DNA from: Microcoleus sp. FACHB-68
GTDB lineage: Bacteria; Cyanobacteriota; Cyanobacteriia; Cyanobacteriales; Oscillatoriaceae
Length of the DNA: 64,000 bases
Reading direction: 5' to 3'
NCBI RefSeq assembly: GCF_014695715.1
Contig: NZ_JACJOT010000015.1
Span: forward strand, 62,001-126,000
A program made the position numbers and the translations under genes. How positions within the stretch are numbered: the stretch's first letter is position 1; each line of letters starts with the position of its first letter. Positions 7,328 through 57,761 of the stretch are shown here, piece by piece. Below the pieces are notes generated by a model. The model was not told the origin of the DNA. It was given only the letters and a program-made list of their open reading frames with translations, and did not search any database.

Positions 7328-7612
7328 CGTTTGCTTGGCGGCGGAATTTTGAGCCGGTCGTAATTTTGAGTTTATCTCTTAAATAGCAATTCGGAAAATC
7401 CCGTTATCTCGTTAGACAGCTGACAAAAATATGAATATAGCAGCGGGTTTAGCCGGCATTTAACGCCTATCGTCCCTTAATTTCCCTGTAAACTCGCCCT
7501 ACCCCAACTGTTGGCGTTTCAATTTTTGTATCAGTTATGTACACACGATTTATTTGAGGTTAACTTGGGTACACCCAGGAAACAGCACTCGATTTTCGCT
7601 AAACAAATCCTT

Positions 7613-8569
7613 ATGAAAATTGACTTCAAACCCAAATCTGCCCAATATTTTGCCCGATTAAACCCGCCTCAAACCTGTGCCGGCAGCCAGCGTTTTAGTG
7701 TTGTCTTGCTGCTTGCAGTGCTATCTGCCGTCATGATGGGAAGCTGTGCCCAGCAAGCCAGTCAATACAACGCCTCTATGGCAAGTCCTCCCATGTCGCC
7801 GGCAAGTGCTCCAGCACCAGCAAATCAGGCTGTCGCGGCTGCTGAAGTGCCGAAAGCTCCACCCCAACTGATTAAAAATGCAGGACTAACTCTCATGGTT
7901 AAATCCATTGACAAAACCATGAAAGAAGTTTCTGCAATCGCCCAAACCCAGCAGGGTGATATCTTGGGATTTCAGAATCAAAAGCCTCAAGATTCCAGTA
8001 TGCGGCACACAGCATCCATGCGAATTCGGGTGCCACAAAACAAACTTGAAGCTACGTTAGATGCTTTAAATAGATTAGGAACTGTGCAAAAACAAACCCT
8101 CACCGCAGAGGATGTTTCTAATCAGTTAGTCGATTTAGATGCGCGGCTGCGAAATTTACGAAAATCTGAAGAATTGACTTTAAAAATAATGGAGCGATCT
8201 GGTTCTATTGGGGATGTTTTGAAGGCATCTCAACAAGTAAATACCATTCGCGATGAGATTGAGCGCATTGATGCTCAGTTAAAAAAACTGCGAGATCAGG
8301 TTGCGTACTCGACTATTTTGCTAAATTTAGAAGCGGCTGTTTCTGCTTCGTCTGAGACGGAGCCGGCCCTAGGTTTGCGGATGCAGGAAACCTGGGGACA
8401 AGCAACTCAGTCAGTGAGTGAATTTAGTTTAGCTTTACTTGCTTTGAGCATTTGGTTAGTTGCTTTCAGCCCTTATTTGCTGTTAGGGGGTGCGGCTATC
8501 TATGGCTTTCAACGATTTAGAAAACACAAGTCTCTTGCGACGGTTAATGAGACGAAAGTAAGGGAGTGA
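7613..8569 (+). CDS. DUF4349-type lipoprotein
   Basis: 318-aa envelope protein of unknown function. The start at 7613 (MKIDFKPK) places a signal peptide (RFSVVLLLAVLSAVMMGSC) with a lipobox-like Cys at about residue 45. The frame stays open upstream to a TTG at 7511, but that would bury the signal. After a Pro/Ala linker comes the DUF4349 core (LIKNAGLTLMVKSIDKTM). A coiled coil follows (DARLRNLRKSEELTLKIM to AQLKKLRDQ), then a C-terminal membrane helix (LALLALSIWLVAFSPYLLL) and a basic tail. The last 60 bp and the 3' flank are duplicated at 11321-11420. Confidence 0.85.
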   Translation: MKIDFKPKSAQYFARLNPPQTCAGSQRFSVVLLLAVLSAVMMGSCAQQASQYNASMASPPMSPASAPAPANQAVAAAEVPKAPPQLIKNAGLTLMVKSIDKTMKEVSAIAQTQQGDILGFQNQKPQDSSMRHTASMRIRVPQNKLEATLDALNRLGTVQKQTLTAEDVSNQLVDLDARLRNLRKSEELTLKIMERSGSIGDVLKASQQVNTIRDEIERIDAQLKKLRDQVAYSTILLNLEAAVSASSETEPALGLRMQETWGQATQSVSEFSLALLALSIWLVAFSPYLLLGGAAIYGFQRFRKHKSLATVNETKVRE

Positions 8570-8695
8570 AGGGGAGAAATAAAGGTCGAGCCGGTGCTTG
8601 GTAATTATCTATAGCAGAATGGCTCTGATGGGATGCTTTCGTTGGGTTTCGCTTCAAATCCGGTTACATCGGAATCATACAGTAGCGAAAGTGAT

Positions 8696-8733
8696 CGTCT
8701 CGCTCGCTATAATTAGCGAAAGCGAACGAGACG
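8696..8733. terminator. Hairpin between convergent genes
   Basis: CGTCTCGCTCGCT (8696-8708) and AGCGAACGAGACG (8721-8733) form a 13-bp stem with one mismatch (G-T or A-C depending on strand) and a 12-nt loop. It lies between the converging DUF4349 and pathogen-related-type genes. It has no T-run, so a bidirectional terminator or a dispersed palindromic repeat are both possible. Confidence 0.45.
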
Positions 8734-8778
8734 GTTGCATTACAACGCCAGCGGAAACAAGATGACCTCTTCCTTTGA

Positions 8779-9435
8779 TTAATGACTTACGGGACATCCT
8801 CCTCTCGTTAACCCTGTTAAGAAATTATTGGTGTCAAAGAAATGTTCTACAGACTCAATTTTTAAATCCTCTGTGACTTTAGCAATACTAAGACCAATAA
8901 TTTCAATAGTTTCTCCTTTCCCTTGATGATCTTTGTAAGATCCCTTAAAGATACCCCAGTGTCTCCACTTAAACACAACGCTAGGAGGCCCTGCAACGAC
9001 TTCGATTAATTCCCAGTGAAAACCGTCGGGAAAAGCTGTGTGAAAGAGGTTGTAGGAGGATTGAAAGGTTTCATCAGACGCGCGGTAGTGGTCTGAGTTT
9101 TCTAGAAAGAGATTATAGGTTCCCTGATCTACAATCTCTTCGGCTGTGTATTCTTTTCCTCCATTAGTTCTCATACGGAATTTATCCGTAACGACAGAGA
9201 TCCATTGTTGGGGATTGGTTTTGAAGGATGCTTCCATTTCAAATGTTCTCACCAGATTATAGGCGATCGCATTCAAAGACCCTTCAACATGATTGTGTTT
9301 CTTTTCCTTTTCCAAGGAAGCATTAGTGTGAGAATAGTCTGGACGACTTCCGTACCGCCATTCTACTCCGTCATCCTGTTTCAAAACTTCTTCTCTATCT
9401 TGCACCCAGAGGGGTAAGCCGGGAGTTGTACTCAT
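8779..9435 (-). CDS. SnoaL/NTF2-like protein resembling plant pathogen-related protein
   Basis: 218 aa, soluble, no signal peptide. The sequence matches what I recall of barley and other plant pathogen-related proteins, which have a SnoaL-like NTF2 fold. The shared stretches are WRYGSRPDYSHTN, VEGSLNAIAYNLVRTFEMEA, HTAFPDGFHWELIEVVAGPP, FKWRHWG and ESVEHFFDTNNFLTGL. These correspond to WRHGAPPNY, EGSLEEQVQNLVKTWEME, FRHWG and VEFFFD in the plant proteins. Biochemical activity is unknown. AGGAG about 11 bases upstream supports the ATG. The gene has no GCCGGC sites, unlike most neighbours, and sits beside an IS630 copy, so acquisition by transfer is plausible. Confidence 0.8.
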   Translation of the reverse strand: MSTTPGLPLWVQDREEVLKQDDGVEWRYGSRPDYSHTNASLEKEKKHNHVEGSLNAIAYNLVRTFEMEASFKTNPQQWISVVTDKFRMRTNGGKEYTAEEIVDQGTYNLFLENSDHYRASDETFQSSYNLFHTAFPDGFHWELIEVVAGPPSVVFKWRHWGIFKGSYKDHQGKGETIEIIGLSIAKVTEDLKIESVEHFFDTNNFLTGLTRGGCPVSH

Positions 9436-9970
9436 ATCTGTTAATCTCCTAGGATTTGGGTTAATACAAATCTTGATACTACAATGAAAGACTGACGGTT
9501 TTGATTCGAGAGTATTGGAAAAAATAATATTAGACTGAAAATTGTCGCCCTGTCAATCCTAGGCAGCCATAAACCTAAGAGAATGTTTTAAAAGTGAAGA
9601 CGTATTGTAAGAAAGCTCACAAGGCTTAAGCTGAAATTTGTAGATACCGGCCAGGGCTGTTTCATTCTAGTTGAGTAGTGGATATGTTAGTAAAGTATCG
9701 TACTCATCCCCCGGAGTTGTATGTCTCAACTTGCCATTCTCGAAGCCTTTGCAGACTTGCCTAACACCTATCGCACCGAGTAACCGAATGGGATTCAAAT
9801 CTCTAACTAACAGCATCGGTACTTTTTAGAGGACTCAGACTAAATTTTGTTTGCTTATACTCCTTTGAAAACAGATGAATACAGATGCTTAATTCGTTGG
9901 GGCGAGGATTTATTTTTTTAACCGCAGATCAATCCAGATGTTGGTCATACTCTTTTTTGGGAAAAGGTTA
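9436..9970. other. Gene-poor flank of the IS630 element
   Basis: This 535-bp stretch lies between the pathogen-related-type gene and the IS630 copy. It holds the likely promoter of the former near its right-hand start. It also holds a short transposase-like start at 9721 and ATCTGCGG/CAGATG-type short repeats (about 9870-9945) like those inside the 3323-3456 element. No complete gene is seen. Confidence 0.6.
9721..9783 (+). pseudogene. Possible 5' remnant of a transposase
   Basis: An ATG opens a 20-codon frame MSQLAILEAFADLPNTYRTE followed by TAA. The wording ILEAFADLP resembles the N-termini of ISAs1-like transposase genes in filamentous cyanobacteria, as I recall them. No continuation is found downstream in any frame. 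If correct, only the first codons survived; it may equally be a chance short ORF. Confidence 0.3.
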
Positions 9971-9980
9971 TACCAATTCT

Positions 9981-10547
9981 CTAAACGTTAACTACAGATA
10001 GAGCCTCAAGAATATAGGCTCTTCCCGCTATTGATTTAATAACTTCTTTCGTCAATTGTTCCAGTTGTTTACTAATTAAACTCCTCAACTCATCTAAAGT
10101 CTTTGGTAATTCCCATCTCAAACCTCGCTTAAGATACTGCCACACTTGTTCTATTGGGTTTGATTCCGGTGTGTGCGGCGGCTGAAACATTAAAATAATG
10201 TTATTCGGTATTTTCAGTTTTTTCGCTTTATGAAACCTGACATTATCTAATTGAATAATCAATACGCTATCCGGAAATCTTTGGGCTACCAATTCTAAAA
10301 ATATCTGAAAGCATTGACTATTCAAATGGGTAAACTCATAAAAGAAATGCTCTCCGGTTTCGGGTTCAACCACCCCATATATATATGTTCCTTGGAATTT
10401 CCATTGCACTTTTCCTATGGGTTTTACCCCCGGGCAAGTAATTCTTCTGCCACTTATTGTTTTTAGTCCTATTCGGGTTTCATCTTGACAGAAAAATCTG
10501 ATCTTTTTCCCTAACCCCATGATGGTTACTGCTATTACGCTCAGCAT
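9981..10547 (-). CDS. IS630 transposase, DDE catalytic part (ORF B)
   Basis: C-terminal catalytic half of the IS630/Tc1-mariner-type transposase. First Asp is in CQDETRIGLK, second Asp in IQLDNVRFHKAKKL, and the Glu in PPHTPESNPIEQVWQYLK; all three acidic residues are present. The real reading probably enters from ORF A by a -1 shift. In that frame the sequence is open upstream of the ATG at 10547 and adds FLENLA. Translation from the ATG alone would give a catalytic part without the DNA-binding domain. Confidence 0.9.
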   Translation of the reverse strand: MLSVIAVTIMGLGKKIRFFCQDETRIGLKTISGRRITCPGVKPIGKVQWKFQGTYIYGVVEPETGEHFFYEFTHLNSQCFQIFLELVAQRFPDSVLIIQLDNVRFHKAKKLKIPNNIILMFQPPHTPESNPIEQVWQYLKRGLRWELPKTLDELRSLISKQLEQLTKEVIKSIAGRAYILEALSVVNV

Positions 10548-10558
10548 GGCTAGGTTTT

Positions 10559-11062
10559 CTAAAAAGTTTTTTTAAAATCTTTTAATCTTTCCTCTGACTG
10601 TTCTGTGCTTTTTGGTCTGGCTATTTTTGGGGCGGCTTTGAGTCGATAATATACTAATTGATGGACTGTTTTATAATTGGCTTCTATCCCTAGCTTCTCT
10701 CTCAACCATGAGCAAATTTCTCCATAACTGTCGAATCCCCTTGGCGACTGGAGTTTTTTCTGTAGTTCTTTTTCTGCCCACGCTGGGATTTTTCTAGGTC
10801 TTCCTGTGCTGACTTTTTTCGCTAAAAGTTCAATGAGTCCTCCTTGACGGTATTTGGTTAACCAATCTTGGACTGTGACTCGATTTCTGCCAATCAGTTC
10901 TGCGGCTTCTTTGACCGTTTTAGCTTTTTTTGTTTTGAGTAGGTACAACACTTGTAATCTTTCTTTTCCTGATGCGGTTTTTTCTTGGCTCAGTCGTTTT
11001 TTGAGTTCGCTTTCACTTTCTGTGATTTCTAGCTGATAAACTCCTGCCATTTTTTTCCTCAA
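10559..11062 (-). CDS. IS630 transposase, helix-turn-helix part (ORF A)
   Basis: N-terminal DNA-binding half. KTVKEAAELIGRNRVTVQDW is a helix-turn-helix, and GRPRKIPAWAEKELQK followed by the winged-helix-like GFDSYGEICSWLREKLGI completes the region. The frame ends in LKDFKKTF just after an A7-C-T5 run (10562-10574 on the + strand). This run is a plausible -1 slippage site joining it to ORF B. Start MRKKMAG at 11062; the second Met four codons in is an alternative. Confidence 0.88.
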   Translation of the reverse strand: MRKKMAGVYQLEITESESELKKRLSQEKTASGKERLQVLYLLKTKKAKTVKEAAELIGRNRVTVQDWLTKYRQGGLIELLAKKVSTGRPRKIPAWAEKELQKKLQSPRGFDSYGEICSWLREKLGIEANYKTVHQLVYYRLKAAPKIARPKSTEQSEERLKDFKKTF

Positions 11063-11125
11063 ACTCTATTCAACGTACTATTCTATCCGATGCGTAGTAC
11101 CTATTTCAAGAACTGGTATTACTAG

Positions 11126-11420
11126 GGCTGGGATGAAATGAGATAGGCCGTGCAAGAATACTGCTGGTCTTTTTGTATCTTTTTCTTTTAACAAGTTTGG
11201 GAGTATATTGATTGATAAGTTGTTAGTGGGATGAACTGCGTTCTTAGGGAACCACTGCACCAGATAGGAGACATCATTGCTGAGCGATACCGGCTCATCA
11301 ATCTTTTAGGGCAGGGTGGAAACGATTTAGAAAACACAAGTCTCTTTCCAGAGTTCACGAGGTGAAAGTAAGAGAGTGAAAGATAGAAGTGAAAAGTTGA
11401 GTGTTTGCCTGGTAATTATC
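11126..11420 (+). pseudogene. Chimeric scar: kinase 5' copy fused to DUF4349 3' copy
   Basis: Bases 11126-11319 match the upstream region and first codons of the kinase gene at 14778-14969. This covers the GTATCTTTTTCTTTTAACAAG stretch, the start context and codons for EPLHQ-GDIIA-RYRL through GQGG. At 11321 the match switches abruptly to the 3' end of the DUF4349 gene (8511-8609): AACGATTTAG, AAAACACAAG, GAAAGTAAG and GGTAATTATC. The kinase frame therefore stops at a TAG (11328-11330) after about 32 codons. The segment records a duplication-deletion event joining copies of two genes that now lie about 6 kb apart. Both halves have drifted, so it is not recent. Confidence 0.8.
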
Positions 11421-11459
11421 GAGGAGATTCTTCCTTTAGCCTTAAAATTCTGGCAAAAA

Positions 11460-13043
11460 TTAGAGGTGAGAATCAGGCAGATCGCTTGCCGGCAAAGTTT
11501 CGGGTGATTGTTCTGTTGGTGTTTGTTCTAAAGGCTCAGCTTCTTCAAGGATGAATGGTTGAAAACGAATATCACCCGGTTCAATGGCTAGCCTTCGCCA
11601 CCAAGCTGGTAACAGAAGCTGCCAAAACTTACCCAGAGAGACAGCGCGTTGCTCATGAACAAAAACCAAAGGCAGGAGAGCAACCAGCCGCAGGACGGCT
11701 GAGAGGGCAAACAGCCCCGGCAAGCCATTGAACTCACTGACAGTTGCGAGAAAGCCACCAAGCGTGATTCCCATTGCGCCGGTGACACCAGGAACCGCCG
11801 CCGCGATCGCAAAGTAAATAGACTGATTTCGCAGGGGTGCCACTCCCATCAAAAGATTGCTGCTGCACAGATCAATTGCTGCCCATGTCCCACCGCCGAC
11901 GATATGCAACAGGGGGAACCAAACCCAAAGGAAAATTGGGGCAGTTCCAGCTTCCAGCCAGAGTAGCGGTGTTAGCGCTACCAAAACCCCGACGGCGATC
12001 ATCAGGGGCCGATTTCCCACCCGATCAGCCAGTTTCCCCCAGAAAACTAGCATTAGCAAGTTAGCACCGGCTCCTAAGCTGCCATAAAGCGTAACCACGC
12101 TGACATCTATTGCTAAGTCATCGAGCAGATAGAGGTTAAAGAAGGGTGCGCTAACATTGACCGCAAAGCTCCATAGAGCAGAGTAAAGCAAAAACTTCAA
12201 ATAATTGGCGTCTTTGAGGAAGCTAAAAACACTCCCTGTGGACGACTTTTGGGCGGTATCTGAATGGGTGAGATGTACTAGCTGCGGGTTCACATCGGCC
12301 ATAAAGAACTGAAAGCACAGGCTGACTAACCCCACCGCAATCGCTAGAACTAAGACAGCGCTGTAACCTTGGAGCGTTCCACCAGGCCACTTTGAGATCA
12401 CTAAACCCACCACCGGCACACCAATAAGATTGGTCAAGCTGATCGCACTGTTGCGAAAGCCAAAATACCGGCCCCGCAATCGCTGAGGGACTAAGGCAGC
12501 CAACCAGCTGAACCAAGAAGCTCGGCCCAAAGCTTCCATGATATTGGTGATCCAAATAATGGCCAGTGTTAGCTGCACCAGCCGGTGGTTAGTGATATGA
12601 AACGAGCCTCCGAACCAAAGTGCCGGCACGAGAATCAACCACAGCAGTCGTGATGGGCCGAAAATCCAGATGGAATACCAGTGCCGGCTTTTCATCCGAT
12701 CTGCTATATATGCTCCTAACGGTTGCAGCAGATTCGTTAACTGAGGAATCGAGGCTAGCATCCCGATTTCTACAGGACCGGCACCTAAACCGAGCAAGAA
12801 ATTGCTGAGCAATGCGCCGCCGATGATGCTGTAAAAAATCGTGGCGAAGATACCTTCGAGCGTTATTGCTTTCAGGCTTGAGCGAATTGCCGGCTTAGAA
12901 ATTTTTTGAGGCGCGTTTGCCAGAAGTGCTGTCTCTGATGATGCCCGATCTTCTTGGATTTCCTGAAGGGTAAGAGGGATTGCTTCCCCTAAGCTCTCAT
13001 TTTCGACTTGACTGAATATACTAGACAGCCAATTTTTTAGCAT
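11460..13043 (-). CDS. MFS transporter (paralogue of 56232-57761)
   Basis: 527-aa inner-membrane protein of the major facilitator fold with about 12 hydrophobic segments; substrate unknown. The cytosolic N-terminus of about 65 aa precedes the first helix. IRSSLKAITLEGIFATIFYS, LQPLGAYIADRMKSRHWY, LRGRYFGFRNSAISLTNLIG and GGTWAAIDLCSSNLLMG align with the same blocks in the protein at 56232-57761. The central loop and the tail after about residue 470 are hydrophilic and divergent. The promoter must lie in the AT-rich gap 13044-13363. Confidence 0.88.
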   Translation of the reverse strand: MLKNWLSSIFSQVENESLGEAIPLTLQEIQEDRASSETALLANAPQKISKPAIRSSLKAITLEGIFATIFYSIIGGALLSNFLLGLGAGPVEIGMLASIPQLTNLLQPLGAYIADRMKSRHWYSIWIFGPSRLLWLILVPALWFGGSFHITNHRLVQLTLAIIWITNIMEALGRASWFSWLAALVPQRLRGRYFGFRNSAISLTNLIGVPVVGLVISKWPGGTLQGYSAVLVLAIAVGLVSLCFQFFMADVNPQLVHLTHSDTAQKSSTGSVFSFLKDANYLKFLLYSALWSFAVNVSAPFFNLYLLDDLAIDVSVVTLYGSLGAGANLLMLVFWGKLADRVGNRPLMIAVGVLVALTPLLWLEAGTAPIFLWVWFPLLHIVGGGTWAAIDLCSSNLLMGVAPLRNQSIYFAIAAAVPGVTGAMGITLGGFLATVSEFNGLPGLFALSAVLRLVALLPLVFVHEQRAVSLGKFWQLLLPAWWRRLAIEPGDIRFQPFILEEAEPLEQTPTEQSPETLPASDLPDSHL

Positions 13044-13363
13044 ATAAATATTTAATTAGTATGAGTTTGTATTGCCTGACACAAATATCTAAACTTATAA
13101 GCCAATTGTGATTGTAACTGTATTCGTTTTCTGTAGATTCTTCCAAAGGAATGATTTTTAGATGAAATTAGTTTGTATTATTTTATACAAAATTTTGGAT
13201 AACAAGAAAAATTCTTTCTCCTTGATGTTTTGATTTATTAGCTATGTTTGAGGTTTTATTGCTTTTTATTAGCTAGCTTTGAAATTAAAAATTTATTTCA
13301 ATTTATACAAAAAAATGCTGGCATTGTTGTCATACCACCAGCCTTTGGCTTTGTGTCAAAATT
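13044..13363. other. AT-rich intergenic gap
   Basis: 320 bp between the MFS start and the 3' end of the serine hydrolase, both on the minus strand. It is strongly AT-rich. It should contain the MFS promoter, but I see no confident -35/-10 pair, repeat or RNA. Confidence 0.5.
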
Positions 13364-14563
13364 TCATTTATTTAAGAATCGCTTTTTCTTTCTGCAAGCC
13401 TTCTCTAAAACCTCACAAACTTTTTTCAAATTAGCCCATTCCGAGTTACTCATCGCCACAAATGCCAGACGTTCATCTGGATAAATTATGAAGCGGGTTC
13501 TCGTTTTTGGCTGAGCGCCGATAGCGACAATACGGTTTCTACCTTCGCCGCTTTTCAAAAGAACATCTTTTTTAAACTGTGCCGGCAGCAGATCTTCTCG
13601 ATTCATCAACCCGTTGCAATATTGTGCCAAATTTTCAACGGTGGAAATAAACCCGCCAGCCGGTAATCTCCAACTCACATCTTTACTTTCAACTCTTGCA
13701 TATTCTTTCGTTTTTTCATTATAAATATATCCAATTGCCCGACGTGGAATATTCACCCATTCCCAATCTGGTTGAAAGCAACTTTCTGATAAATAACCGG
13801 CTTCAGGGTGATTGGGAATGGATGCCGGTGTCATACCAAACGGCACGGCTATTTTGTCACGCACTTTTTCCCAATAAGACTGAGATGTATTGCCGGCACG
13901 CTCAATCACCATTCCCGCAAGGGTGTAGCCGTAAACGGAATAACTGTATTGAGTGCCGGGAATATAAAGCAAATGATCGGGATCATTCCAAAAATATTCT
14001 CCTGCCCAAAAGATGCCGGTGTTAACATTGGGATCATTAATTAAATGATCTGGAGGAACACCCGCTTCATTTGGACCATTCCTAAAGTCTTTGATCCCTG
14101 AAGTATGGTTAAGAAGCATTCGAGGGGTAATGTATAAGCTCGGAGAATTGGGAAGCGGTTGTCTCTGAAACTTGCCATTTTCTAAGGGATAAGCGTAACT
14201 ATTTGGGAATTTATATTCAGGCACATAATTTCTTACGTCTGTATCGAGATCGAGGGTGCCGGCAAACACAGCTTGCATTGCTGCAACACTTGTTACTGAT
14301 TTTGACAGGGACGCCCAACGGAACATGGTTTTATGAGCTTCCACCGGCACTTTGTTTTCAAAGTCTTCGTAGCCATAACCTTTTAAATAAATAATTTCTT
14401 CATCTTTAACGATGCCAATAGCTAGCCCGTAAAGTTCTTGTTTGCCCATTTCTATCTGCACTGCCCGATCAATTTCCAGATCGTTGGAGTAAGGGTTTGA
14501 CGTGTTTTCTTCTTTTACTTTATAAGGGCTATTAGGCTGATTCCAAGAAAAGAATTTTTTCAA
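13364..14563 (-). CDS. Serine hydrolase of the class C beta-lactamase/DD-peptidase fold
   Basis: 399-aa PF00144-type protein; likely a peptidase or esterase rather than a true beta-lactamase. The nucleophile motif S-x-x-K is SLSK at residues 85-88 in MFRWASLSKSVTSVAAMQ. HTSGI follows in LLNHTSGIKDF. The second motif, usually Y-x-N, reads YSV in QYSYSVYGYTLAGMVIE, so the Asn is replaced by Val. The third, H/K-T-G, is not recognisable (near residue 360 it reads IVAIGAQPKTRTRF). No signal peptide is visible, although relatives are usually exported. It is divergent from the kinase gene, across a 316-bp gap. Confidence 0.82.
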   Translation of the reverse strand: MKKFFSWNQPNSPYKVKEENTSNPYSNDLEIDRAVQIEMGKQELYGLAIGIVKDEEIIYLKGYGYEDFENKVPVEAHKTMFRWASLSKSVTSVAAMQAVFAGTLDLDTDVRNYVPEYKFPNSYAYPLENGKFQRQPLPNSPSLYITPRMLLNHTSGIKDFRNGPNEAGVPPDHLINDPNVNTGIFWAGEYFWNDPDHLLYIPGTQYSYSVYGYTLAGMVIERAGNTSQSYWEKVRDKIAVPFGMTPASIPNHPEAGYLSESCFQPDWEWVNIPRRAIGYIYNEKTKEYARVESKDVSWRLPAGGFISTVENLAQYCNGLMNREDLLPAQFKKDVLLKSGEGRNRIVAIGAQPKTRTRFIIYPDERLAFVAMSNSEWANLKKVCEVLEKACRKKKRFLNK

Positions 14564-14879
14564 AGTTTTTTGTAAAGGTTGATTTTTTTTACTGTAGATG
14601 ATAGCGCAGCGGGCCGTGAGACATACGCCGATGATAGCGCAGCGGGCCGTTAGGCAGATACAAATGATTAATCATTATAGATGATTGCAGATAGGGTTAA
14701 CCGACAAATGGTGTATGCTTCTCAGTAGGTTATCGTTAATATTTGTATTTTTTTATTAAAAATTTTGCAGAAAAGAGGCTGGGATGAGATAAGAGAAGTT
14801 GTAAAAATGCCAATTCTCTGTTTGTATCTTTTTCTTTTAACAAGTTTGAGAGTATATTAATTGATGAGTTGTTAGTGGG
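14564..14879. promoter_or_regulatory. Divergent promoter region with 21-bp direct repeat
   Basis: This gap separates the hydrolase (minus) from the kinase (plus) and must hold both promoters. The 21 bases at 14597-14617, starting GATGATAGCGCAG and ending GGGCCGT, recur exactly at 14630-14650, a 33-bp period. The region from 14778 onward is the one copied to 11126. No clear sigma-70 boxes are called. Confidence 0.5.
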
Positions 14880-16250
14880 ATGCGCTGCGCTCTTATGGAA
14901 CCACTGCACCAGATGGGAGACATCATTGCTGACCGATACCGGCTCACCAATATTTTAGGGCAGGGTGGGATTGGTATCACTTATGAAGCTGAAGATCAGG
15001 AAACCGGCAAGCGAGTGGCACTGAAGGAAGTATCACTACGCCGGCTGAGGGATTGGAAGGTTCTAGAATTGTTTGAACGAGAGGCGCGGGTACTCTCAGA
15101 ACTCAATCATCCAAGCATTCCGGCTTACTTAGATTACTTTCAGGTGGATACCGCCAGTGATCGTAGTTTCTATTTGGTTCAGGAAATTGCACCGGGGAAG
15201 TCACTCTCGGCGCTAGTAGAAGCCGGCTGGCGGGCGTCGGAAGGTGAAGCGCAAAAACTGGCAATTCGAGTGTTAGAAATCCTTAGCTATCTGCACAGTT
15301 TAACGCCGCCGGTGATTCACCGAGATATTAAGCCACAAAATATTATTCTGGCGGAAGATGGGCAAGTTTCTTTAGTTGATTTTGGGGCGGTACAAGACAC
15401 TTACCGGCATACATTTGCCGGCAGCAGTACGGTAGTGGGTACTTATGGATATATGGCACCGGAACAATTTCGGGGGCACGCAGAACCGGCAACAGATTTG
15501 TACGGTTTAGGGGCAACTTTATTATTTTTGCTAACACACCAATCGCCGGCAGATTTGCCCCAGCGCCGGCTTAAAATTGAATTTCGCTCTCAAGTTAACA
15601 TCTCAGATGACTTTGCCGGCTGGATAGAAACCCTCATTGAGCCGGCTGTGGAAGATCGGTTCACTTCAGCAAAGGAAGCGCTGGCAGTGCTATTAGGTGA
15701 ACGAGAAATGATTTATCCTCGATCATCCACTCTTCAGCAACCAGCCGGTAGTCGCATCGTTTTGAACAAAACTGCCTCACGTTTAGTTGTAGATATTCCA
15801 CCTTATAGATTCCACGATTCTCTTACCCTAGTCATCGAAGGTGTATTTATCAGCTTCTATGTATTGATGATATGTTGGGTAATTTTCTACATAAGTTCAG
15901 GAATAATCTCCTTGTTACCCTTGCTTGATATGTCATTCAGGTTTGCTGTGGGAATTCCAGGAGTAATTATTTGCGTGAGTGCGATAGAATCTTGCCTGTC
16001 CAGGATCATTCTTAGTGAGCAATTAGAGATAGACCTGCAAACCTTCCGGCTGCGTTGGAAGTTACTGGGTGTTGTTAGTCACCAAGTCAAGGGACGAACG
16101 GAAAATATAGAACTTCGCTGCGATCCTTTTTCTGGCACTTTAGTAGAGGGAGCGAAAAAGTACCGTTTTGGAACAAAGTTAATGCCGGCGGAAAAAGAAT
16201 GGTTAGTGGCGGAATTAAATAATTTTCTGGGAAAACTACGGTACAAGTAG
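14880..16250 (+). CDS. Membrane-anchored Ser/Thr protein kinase (Hanks type)
   Basis: 456 aa. The kinase domain spans residues about 18-280. It has the Gly-rich loop LGQGGIGITYEAED, the catalytic Lys in RVALKEVSL, VIHRDIKPQNIIL, DFGAVQ in place of DFG-x-x, and GTYGYMAPEQFRG. All catalytic residues are present. Two or three hydrophobic segments follow (VIEGVFISFYVLMICWVIF and FAVGIPGVIICVSAI). A C-terminal globular part (LEIDLQTFRLRWKLLG) looks like a small PH-like domain on the cytosolic side. The second ATG at 14895 is an alternative start; in the scar copy that codon is AGG. Substrates are unknown. Confidence 0.9.
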   Translation: MRCALMEPLHQMGDIIADRYRLTNILGQGGIGITYEAEDQETGKRVALKEVSLRRLRDWKVLELFEREARVLSELNHPSIPAYLDYFQVDTASDRSFYLVQEIAPGKSLSALVEAGWRASEGEAQKLAIRVLEILSYLHSLTPPVIHRDIKPQNIILAEDGQVSLVDFGAVQDTYRHTFAGSSTVVGTYGYMAPEQFRGHAEPATDLYGLGATLLFLLTHQSPADLPQRRLKIEFRSQVNISDDFAGWIETLIEPAVEDRFTSAKEALAVLLGEREMIYPRSSTLQQPAGSRIVLNKTASRLVVDIPPYRFHDSLTLVIEGVFISFYVLMICWVIFYISSGIISLLPLLDMSFRFAVGIPGVIICVSAIESCLSRIILSEQLEIDLQTFRLRWKLLGVVSHQVKGRTENIELRCDPFSGTLVEGAKKYRFGTKLMPAEKEWLVAELNNFLGKLRYK

Positions 16251-56231: not shown

Positions 56232-57761
56232 CTAGTCCCTTTCTGAGGTTTGCGAGATCGCCATAGAACCGGCTACAGGAATTGCGGCTAAAACCGGCAC
56301 CCTTTGCGGCTTTAACGGTAAGAAATTACGAATAAGCTGGCCCAGTGAAAGACTACGACGCTCTTGGACAAACAGCAAAGGCACAATGGCTACCAGTCGC
56401 AGGACGGCTGAGAGGGCAAATAAGCCGGTTAAACCACCGACTGCCGGGATCTCGGCAAGAAAGCCGCCGACTGTAGTTCCCAACGCACCCGTCACACCGG
56501 CAACGGCTGCGGCAATGGCAAAGTATGTAGACGGCTGCCGCTTCGGCGCGATTTCCATCTGAATATTATTGCTACACAGGTCAATTGCCGCCCAAGTTCC
56601 GCCACCCAGCGCGTGCAGCAGTGGCAACAACAACCAAAGAGACAGAGGATTGTTGCTGGTGCCTACCCAGAGTAAAGGCGTCACTCCCACTAAAATCCCC
56701 ACTAAAAGCAGGATGGGCCGGTTGCCCAGCCGATCTGCCAATTTACCCCAAAGCATCAGCATCAGCAGGTTCGCCCCAGCGCTAAAGCTGTTAAAAATCG
56801 TTACCCAACTCACATCCAAGCCTAAATCTTTCAGCAGGTAGAGATTGAAAAACGGGCTGCTGAGATTAACCGCAAACGTCCAAAAGCCAAAGTAAAGCAG
56901 AAACGTTAAGAAATTGGTGTCTTTGAGGAGTGTAGCGAAGTTTTTTGTCTCTGTCTCTCCTTCTTCCCCCGTCTCCGCCTTTTGAGGGTTTTCCTGCTGC
57001 TGGGGGTTAACATCTGCCATGAAACACTGGCACCCCAGACTGATCAATCCGGCTATAACTGCGACAGATAAAGCGACTCCATAGCCTTGAATTGTACCGC
57101 CGGCCCATGCAGATACGACGATTCCCATCAGCGGCACGCCCAGCAGTGTTGTCAAGCTGCCGGCACTGTTGCGAAAGCCAAAATACCGTCCCCGCAGCTT
57201 GTGGGGAACTAATACGCTCATCCAGCTTAGCCAGGAGGCGCTGCCGAGTGCTGAGAGCAAATTAGCGGCAAAGACAATAAACAGTGTCCCTTGCAGCAGC
57301 AGGTGCCGGTCTGCGTGAGACCAACTAGCAAACCCGATCCCCACCACTAACATCAGCCACAGCAGCCTTGAGCAGCCAAACATTAGCAAGTTATACCGGC
57401 TGCGACTTGTTTGCCGGTCTGCTAAATAGGCTCCCACCGGCTGCAGAAAGTTCATCACCATCGGCAGCGCACACAGCAAGCCGATTTCCCAACTCGTCGC
57501 ACCTAACTGCAGCGTGAAGTCTGTTAGCAACACGCCGGTGGTGGCTGCGCCAAAAATGTTGGAAAAAACACTATCAAACGTTGAAGCTTTTAAGCTAGAA
57601 CGTATTGCCTGCTTGGAAATCCCCTTTTGCTCCCCCGCCGGTTCGCAAGTGCTGAGCACTTCGCAAGGCACTATGGAGTCGGAAATCATCGTTTCTGAAA
57701 TCTCCGGCTTTGAGAGAGAAAGTGATTCAACAGGAGCAAAATCCACCACGGTTCTGAGCAT
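56232..57761 (-). CDS. MFS transporter (paralogue of 11460-13043)
   Basis: 509-aa inner-membrane protein, about 12 hydrophobic segments. Blocks shared with the other copy are IRSSLKASTFDSVFSNIFG, LQPVGAYLADRQTSRSRYN, LRGRYFGFRNSAGSLTTLLG and GGTWAAIDLCSNNIQM. The central cytosolic loop (QQENPQKAETGEEGETETKN) is encoded by a pyrimidine-rich, repeat-like stretch at 56945-57000. The long N-terminus is hydrophilic. Substrate unknown; the two paralogues diverge enough to suggest different roles. Confidence 0.88.
   Translation of the reverse strand: MLRTVVDFAPVESLSLSKPEISETMISDSIVPCEVLSTCEPAGEQKGISKQAIRSSLKASTFDSVFSNIFGAATTGVLLTDFTLQLGATSWEIGLLCALPMVMNFLQPVGAYLADRQTSRSRYNLLMFGCSRLLWLMLVVGIGFASWSHADRHLLLQGTLFIVFAANLLSALGSASWLSWMSVLVPHKLRGRYFGFRNSAGSLTTLLGVPLMGIVVSAWAGGTIQGYGVALSVAVIAGLISLGCQCFMADVNPQQQENPQKAETGEEGETETKNFATLLKDTNFLTFLLYFGFWTFAVNLSSPFFNLYLLKDLGLDVSWVTIFNSFSAGANLLMLMLWGKLADRLGNRPILLLVGILVGVTPLLWVGTSNNPLSLWLLLPLLHALGGGTWAAIDLCSNNIQMEIAPKRQPSTYFAIAAAVAGVTGALGTTVGGFLAEIPAVGGLTGLFALSAVLRLVAIVPLLFVQERRSLSLGQLIRNFLPLKPQRVPVLAAIPVAGSMAISQTSERD

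Follow-up and report, generated by a model that had tools for sequence, protein, structure and literature searches.

How did the start of a protein kinase gene come to be joined to the end of a DUF4349 gene in Microcoleus sp. FACHB-68, and did the IS630-type element beside the junction have a part in it? The chimeric stretch, hereafter the scar, lies in a window of 64,000 nucleotides whose relevant features are listed in Table 1. A BLASTN search with 11118-11460 against the whole genome returned three places only, namely the query itself, 14777-14968 and 8511-8609. The first-pass annotation had read 11126-11319 as a copy of the kinase 5' region and 11321-11420 as a copy of the DUF4349 end, and both identifications hold: the former matches 14777-14968 with 86% identity (E = 2.1e-59) and the latter 8511-8609 with 79% identity (E = 1.9e-16). 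When the halves were aligned with their sources, none of 200 dinucleotide-type shuffles equalled the score of either side; E values and shuffles together rule out chance similarity. The genome has no further copy and the plasmids, which were also searched, have none, ruling out a dispersed element or a plasmid origin. The switch at 11320 is as abrupt as had been described, reading GGGCAGGGTGG, A, AACGATTTAG with one ambiguous base, and no microhomology was seen there. It couples the kinase start (14968) to the DUF4349 end (8511) on the same strand, both sources being intact nearby, and the homology on the DUF4349 side runs out about 40 bp past the stop codon of that gene. The scar is a real but ordinary rearrangement relic, a 0.3-kb fusion of a kinase-start copy (K') with a DUF4349-end copy (D').

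Table 1. Features of the scar and its surroundings, in positions of the window.
Feature	Position	Strand	Remarks
DUF4349 gene	7511-8569	+	Intact source of the D copy; Pfam DUF4349, E = 7e-52
SnoaL-like gene block	8696-9578	-	ORF 8779-9435; not in G002; DNA 93% identical to that of G039, which belongs to another family and has it elsewhere, unlinked
K' upstream remainder	9893-9970	+	Beta-lactamase/kinase intergenic region, beyond the IS; partly dispersed CGCAGAT-type repeat
IS630-family element	9971-11118	-	Sits in K' at a TA target; two-frame transposase (10559-11062, 9981-10547); DDE_3 and HTH
K'	11119-11319	+	Copied from 14771-14968: upstream region of the kinase plus its first ~30 codons
Chimeric ORF across the joint	11231-11365	+	44 codons; no Pfam match; C-terminus differs in G001
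Joint K'/D'	11320	+	Identical in the window and G001
D'	11321-11420	+	DUF4349 3' end with ~40 bp of following sequence; adjoins the MFS gene, an arrangement shared with G002
MFS transporter gene	11460-13043	-	Pfam MFS_1; same place in G001 and G002; part of the original DUF4349-kinase segment
Serine beta-lactamase-like gene	13364-14563	-	Pfam Beta-lactamase; same place in G001, G002, G003, G006 and G007; original segment
Ser/Thr protein kinase gene	14880-16250	+	Intact source of the K copy; Pfam Pkinase, E = 2e-41

The comparison within the genus covers three genomes: this strain, G001 (Microcoleus vaginatus WJT46-NPBG5, a metagenome-assembled genome) and G002. Comparison with related strains, which the first-pass annotation had recommended, recovered the order that preceded the rearrangement. 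In G002 the genes run UvrD-like, DUF4349, MFS, beta-lactamase, kinase, GT; this genome aligns without a break over 11321-14589, and its locus has no scar, SnoaL gene or IS. G001 has the order DUF4349, SnoaL, scar, MFS, beta-lactamase, kinase, and the sequence of its joint is identical to ours. Outside the genus, the order in G003, G006 and G007, all from one other genus of the family, is UvrD-like, DUF4349, beta-lactamase and GT, with a kinase remnant before GT in two of the three, and two further genera (G004 and G005) have UvrD-like, DUF4349 and GT. From these orders it follows that DUF4349 upstream and kinase/GT downstream form the older frame, and that the joining of a kinase start to a DUF4349 end is derived. 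The three genomes of the genus are about equally distant from one another (91% over 55-73 kb), so that divergence dating cannot separate two histories for G002, one in which it was always free of the scar and one in which recombination between D and D' removed it; the divergence fits either.

The first-pass annotation had suggested that the IS630 copy, 7 bp from the matched part of the kinase copy, targeted or promoted the event. The element at 9971-11118 does belong to the IS630 family, having a DDE_3 transposase, an HTH domain and TA at both ends, and related copies occur elsewhere in G000, G001 and G002. At the corresponding site, however, G001 is contiguous (AGGTTATTAGGGCTGGG), an empty site in a genome that carries the same joint. 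The element therefore inserted later into an existing scar and did not cause it; it does not lie at the joint, and kinase-copy sequence flanks it on either side. Precise excision from G001 alone could rescue a causal role, which we regard as extremely improbable and reject as an explanation. The G001 scar was itself entered by a different IS630-type element (L035:8081-9040), carrying HTH_Tnp_IS630 and DDE_3 domains and 32-nt terminal repeats, at a TA inside K' that matches position 11190. With their two-frame transposase and TA target, and the terminal repeats of the G001 element, these insertions resemble those of the IS630/Tc1-mariner group, and both are secondary to the scar. Once the IS is set aside, K' proves longer than had been proposed: 11126-11319 is indeed kinase copy, but the copy goes on past the element. 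The upstream part, in its IS-free G001 version, aligns to the kinase upstream region of G002 with a score that beats 1000 of 1000 shuffles, and BLAST also matches the two; K' thus extends from about 9893 and takes in the entire beta-lactamase/kinase intergenic region.

Between the DUF4349 gene and K' lies the SnoaL-like block. The score of its protein (8779-9435) is slightly below the Pfam cut-off. Besides the DNA match to G039, the proteins of four genomes of G039's genus are 91-92% identical; across the order, homologues are patchy (86 of 291 genomes). Judged by these similarities, the block is a horizontal acquisition, by transfer between families. Its boundary with K' falls in a dispersed CGCAGAT-type repeat, which may have helped the rearrangement at this point. 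A short ORF start at 9724-9786 may resemble the N-terminus of ISAs1-type transposases.

The reading that we consider somewhat more probable than not is that an old tandem duplication left the scar as its joint, followed by loss and replacement within the first copy; the duplication-deletion proposed by the first-pass annotation is supported in this form, with the un-duplicated order in G002 and the scar shared by G001. In an ancestor common to this strain and G001, the segment comprising the DUF4349 end (D), MFS (M), beta-lactamase (B) and the first kinase codons (K) would have been duplicated in tandem, and a join without homology would have given D-M-B-K'/D'-M-B-K. The first copy would then have lost its M and B, with the horizontally acquired SnoaL-like gene (S) taking their place to give D-S-K'/D'-M-B-K, and the truncated and functionless K'-D' stretch would have drifted. 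Later, two different IS630-type elements would have entered it independently, one at 9971-11118 here and another in G001. The polarity of the joint, kinase start followed by DUF4349 end on one strand, is what a duplication of D to K would be expected to give, since it links, in direct orientation, the segment's downstream end to its upstream one. In this, and in having intact sources nearby, the scar is like the joints of tandem duplications and duplication-deletion forms in bacteria; it differs in being old (its copies are 79-86% identical), in that one repeat was replaced by a foreign gene, and in that the full duplication is preserved in no genome seen. Further support comes from the restriction of the homology to three places, the extent of K' over the whole intergenic region, the grouping of the two K' copies, the separate source of S, and the conservation of the order UvrD-like, DUF4349, (beta-lactamase), GT in other genera of the family. 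Within 8610-9893, where the first copy would have stood, nothing was recognised as left over from MFS or beta-lactamase. The claim is accordingly for a joint of duplication type, with a second copy of M and B assumed. The copies, the polarity of the joint, the un-duplicated arrangement in G002, the joint shared with G001 and the later arrival of the IS are observed; the tandem duplication itself, and the sequence in which genes were lost and gained, are deduced. Elsewhere in the window, a second MFS gene (56360-57245) is 66% similar to the one at 11460-13043.

The same final order could have come about in one event, through import from another strain of a fragment carrying DUF4349, SnoaL and a kinase 5' part, whose left end would have recombined homologously within DUF4349 and whose right end would have been joined non-homologously to the end of the resident DUF4349; in a variant, the fragment would have circularised at the K'/D' joint and integrated by a single crossover. 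We hold this to be a real possibility, though short of probable. It would yield D-S-K'/D'-M-B-K without any loss of MFS or beta-lactamase in this lineage, and homology-facilitated illegitimate recombination, in which only one of the two ends is homologous, is described in bacteria (PMC3240628). Compared with that process, which would lead to the same order, the scar differs in that no donor was found and its joint has no microhomology.

The divergence of the copies bears on both histories. K' is 85% identical to its own kinase, and in the two strains it differs from the kinases by 15-19%, whereas the kinases differ among themselves by 6-12%. The K' copies of the window and G001 are 96.5% identical and group together (19 sites), and between-strain divergence inside the scar is about that of the surroundings. 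The 148 nt of K' nearest the joint are closer to the G002 kinase (93%) than to the strain's own (about 88%), a pattern that favours import. D' is likewise nearer to the DUF4349 end of G002 (87%) than to that of its own strain (79%, 8511-8609); because of this, and because its continuity with MFS is shared by G002, D' is probably the resident, original sequence at this place. Past the DUF4349 stop, the D tail shows unusually low identity to G002 (76%), and both this tail and K' exceed the adjacent DNA in divergence. A diverged D tail and a K' more diverged than the kinases count against tandem duplication and would also fit import, as would the resemblance of D' to G002. Against import, the DUF4349 gene has no clear step in divergence except in its last ~100 bp, and SnoaL is found between DUF4349 and the kinase only in this strain and G001. 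Where DUF4349 and SnoaL could both be placed (G003, G007, G027 and G039) they are unlinked, and the donor arrangement DUF4349-SnoaL-kinase was not found in the other genomes of the family. Tandem duplication is modestly favoured because no such arrangement turned up, but the genus is sampled by three genomes only.

There is no sign of function in the scar, and the chimeric ORF is probably non-functional. The first-pass annotation had considered that a 32-residue peptide could still be expressed from the copied kinase promoter. An open frame across the joint does start from an ATG behind the copied upstream region, but it is 44 codons long here and 51 in G001, where the C-terminus differs and the other IS, lying 41 bp ahead of the ATG, separates the ORF from that region. 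No Pfam domain was found in the ORF, and its divergence is like that of the surrounding DNA. A functional ORF or copied promoter, producing a small protein or RNA, is accordingly very unlikely. Equally hard to credit is the combined scenario of one-step capture of the foreign SnoaL gene by half-homologous recombination with a leftover kinase promoter driving a short chimeric transcript. That two IS630-type elements inserted independently suggests that the scar is tolerated, non-functional DNA. Where the kinases have an ATG, the scar of the window has AGG, and from the alignment that ATG may be the true kinase start.

The kinase region has features of its own. A 33-nt unit (GATGATAGCGCAGCGGGCCGT...) occurs twice at 14585-14662, in the kinase upstream region; G002 lacks it at this place, and relatives of the unit lie on other contigs of this genome. 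Among the three genomes of the genus the N-terminal domain of the kinase is 90-94% identical, while a stretch of about 240 bp in the C-terminal part (15772-16010) is only 57-59% identical before the end is conserved again, possibly through domain replacement or diversification.

The meaning of the scar reaches little beyond local genome history. It cautions that an IS beside a rearrangement is no proof of having caused it, and it offers a clear case of a neutral duplication-type joint that later became the landing site of two independent IS630-type insertions.
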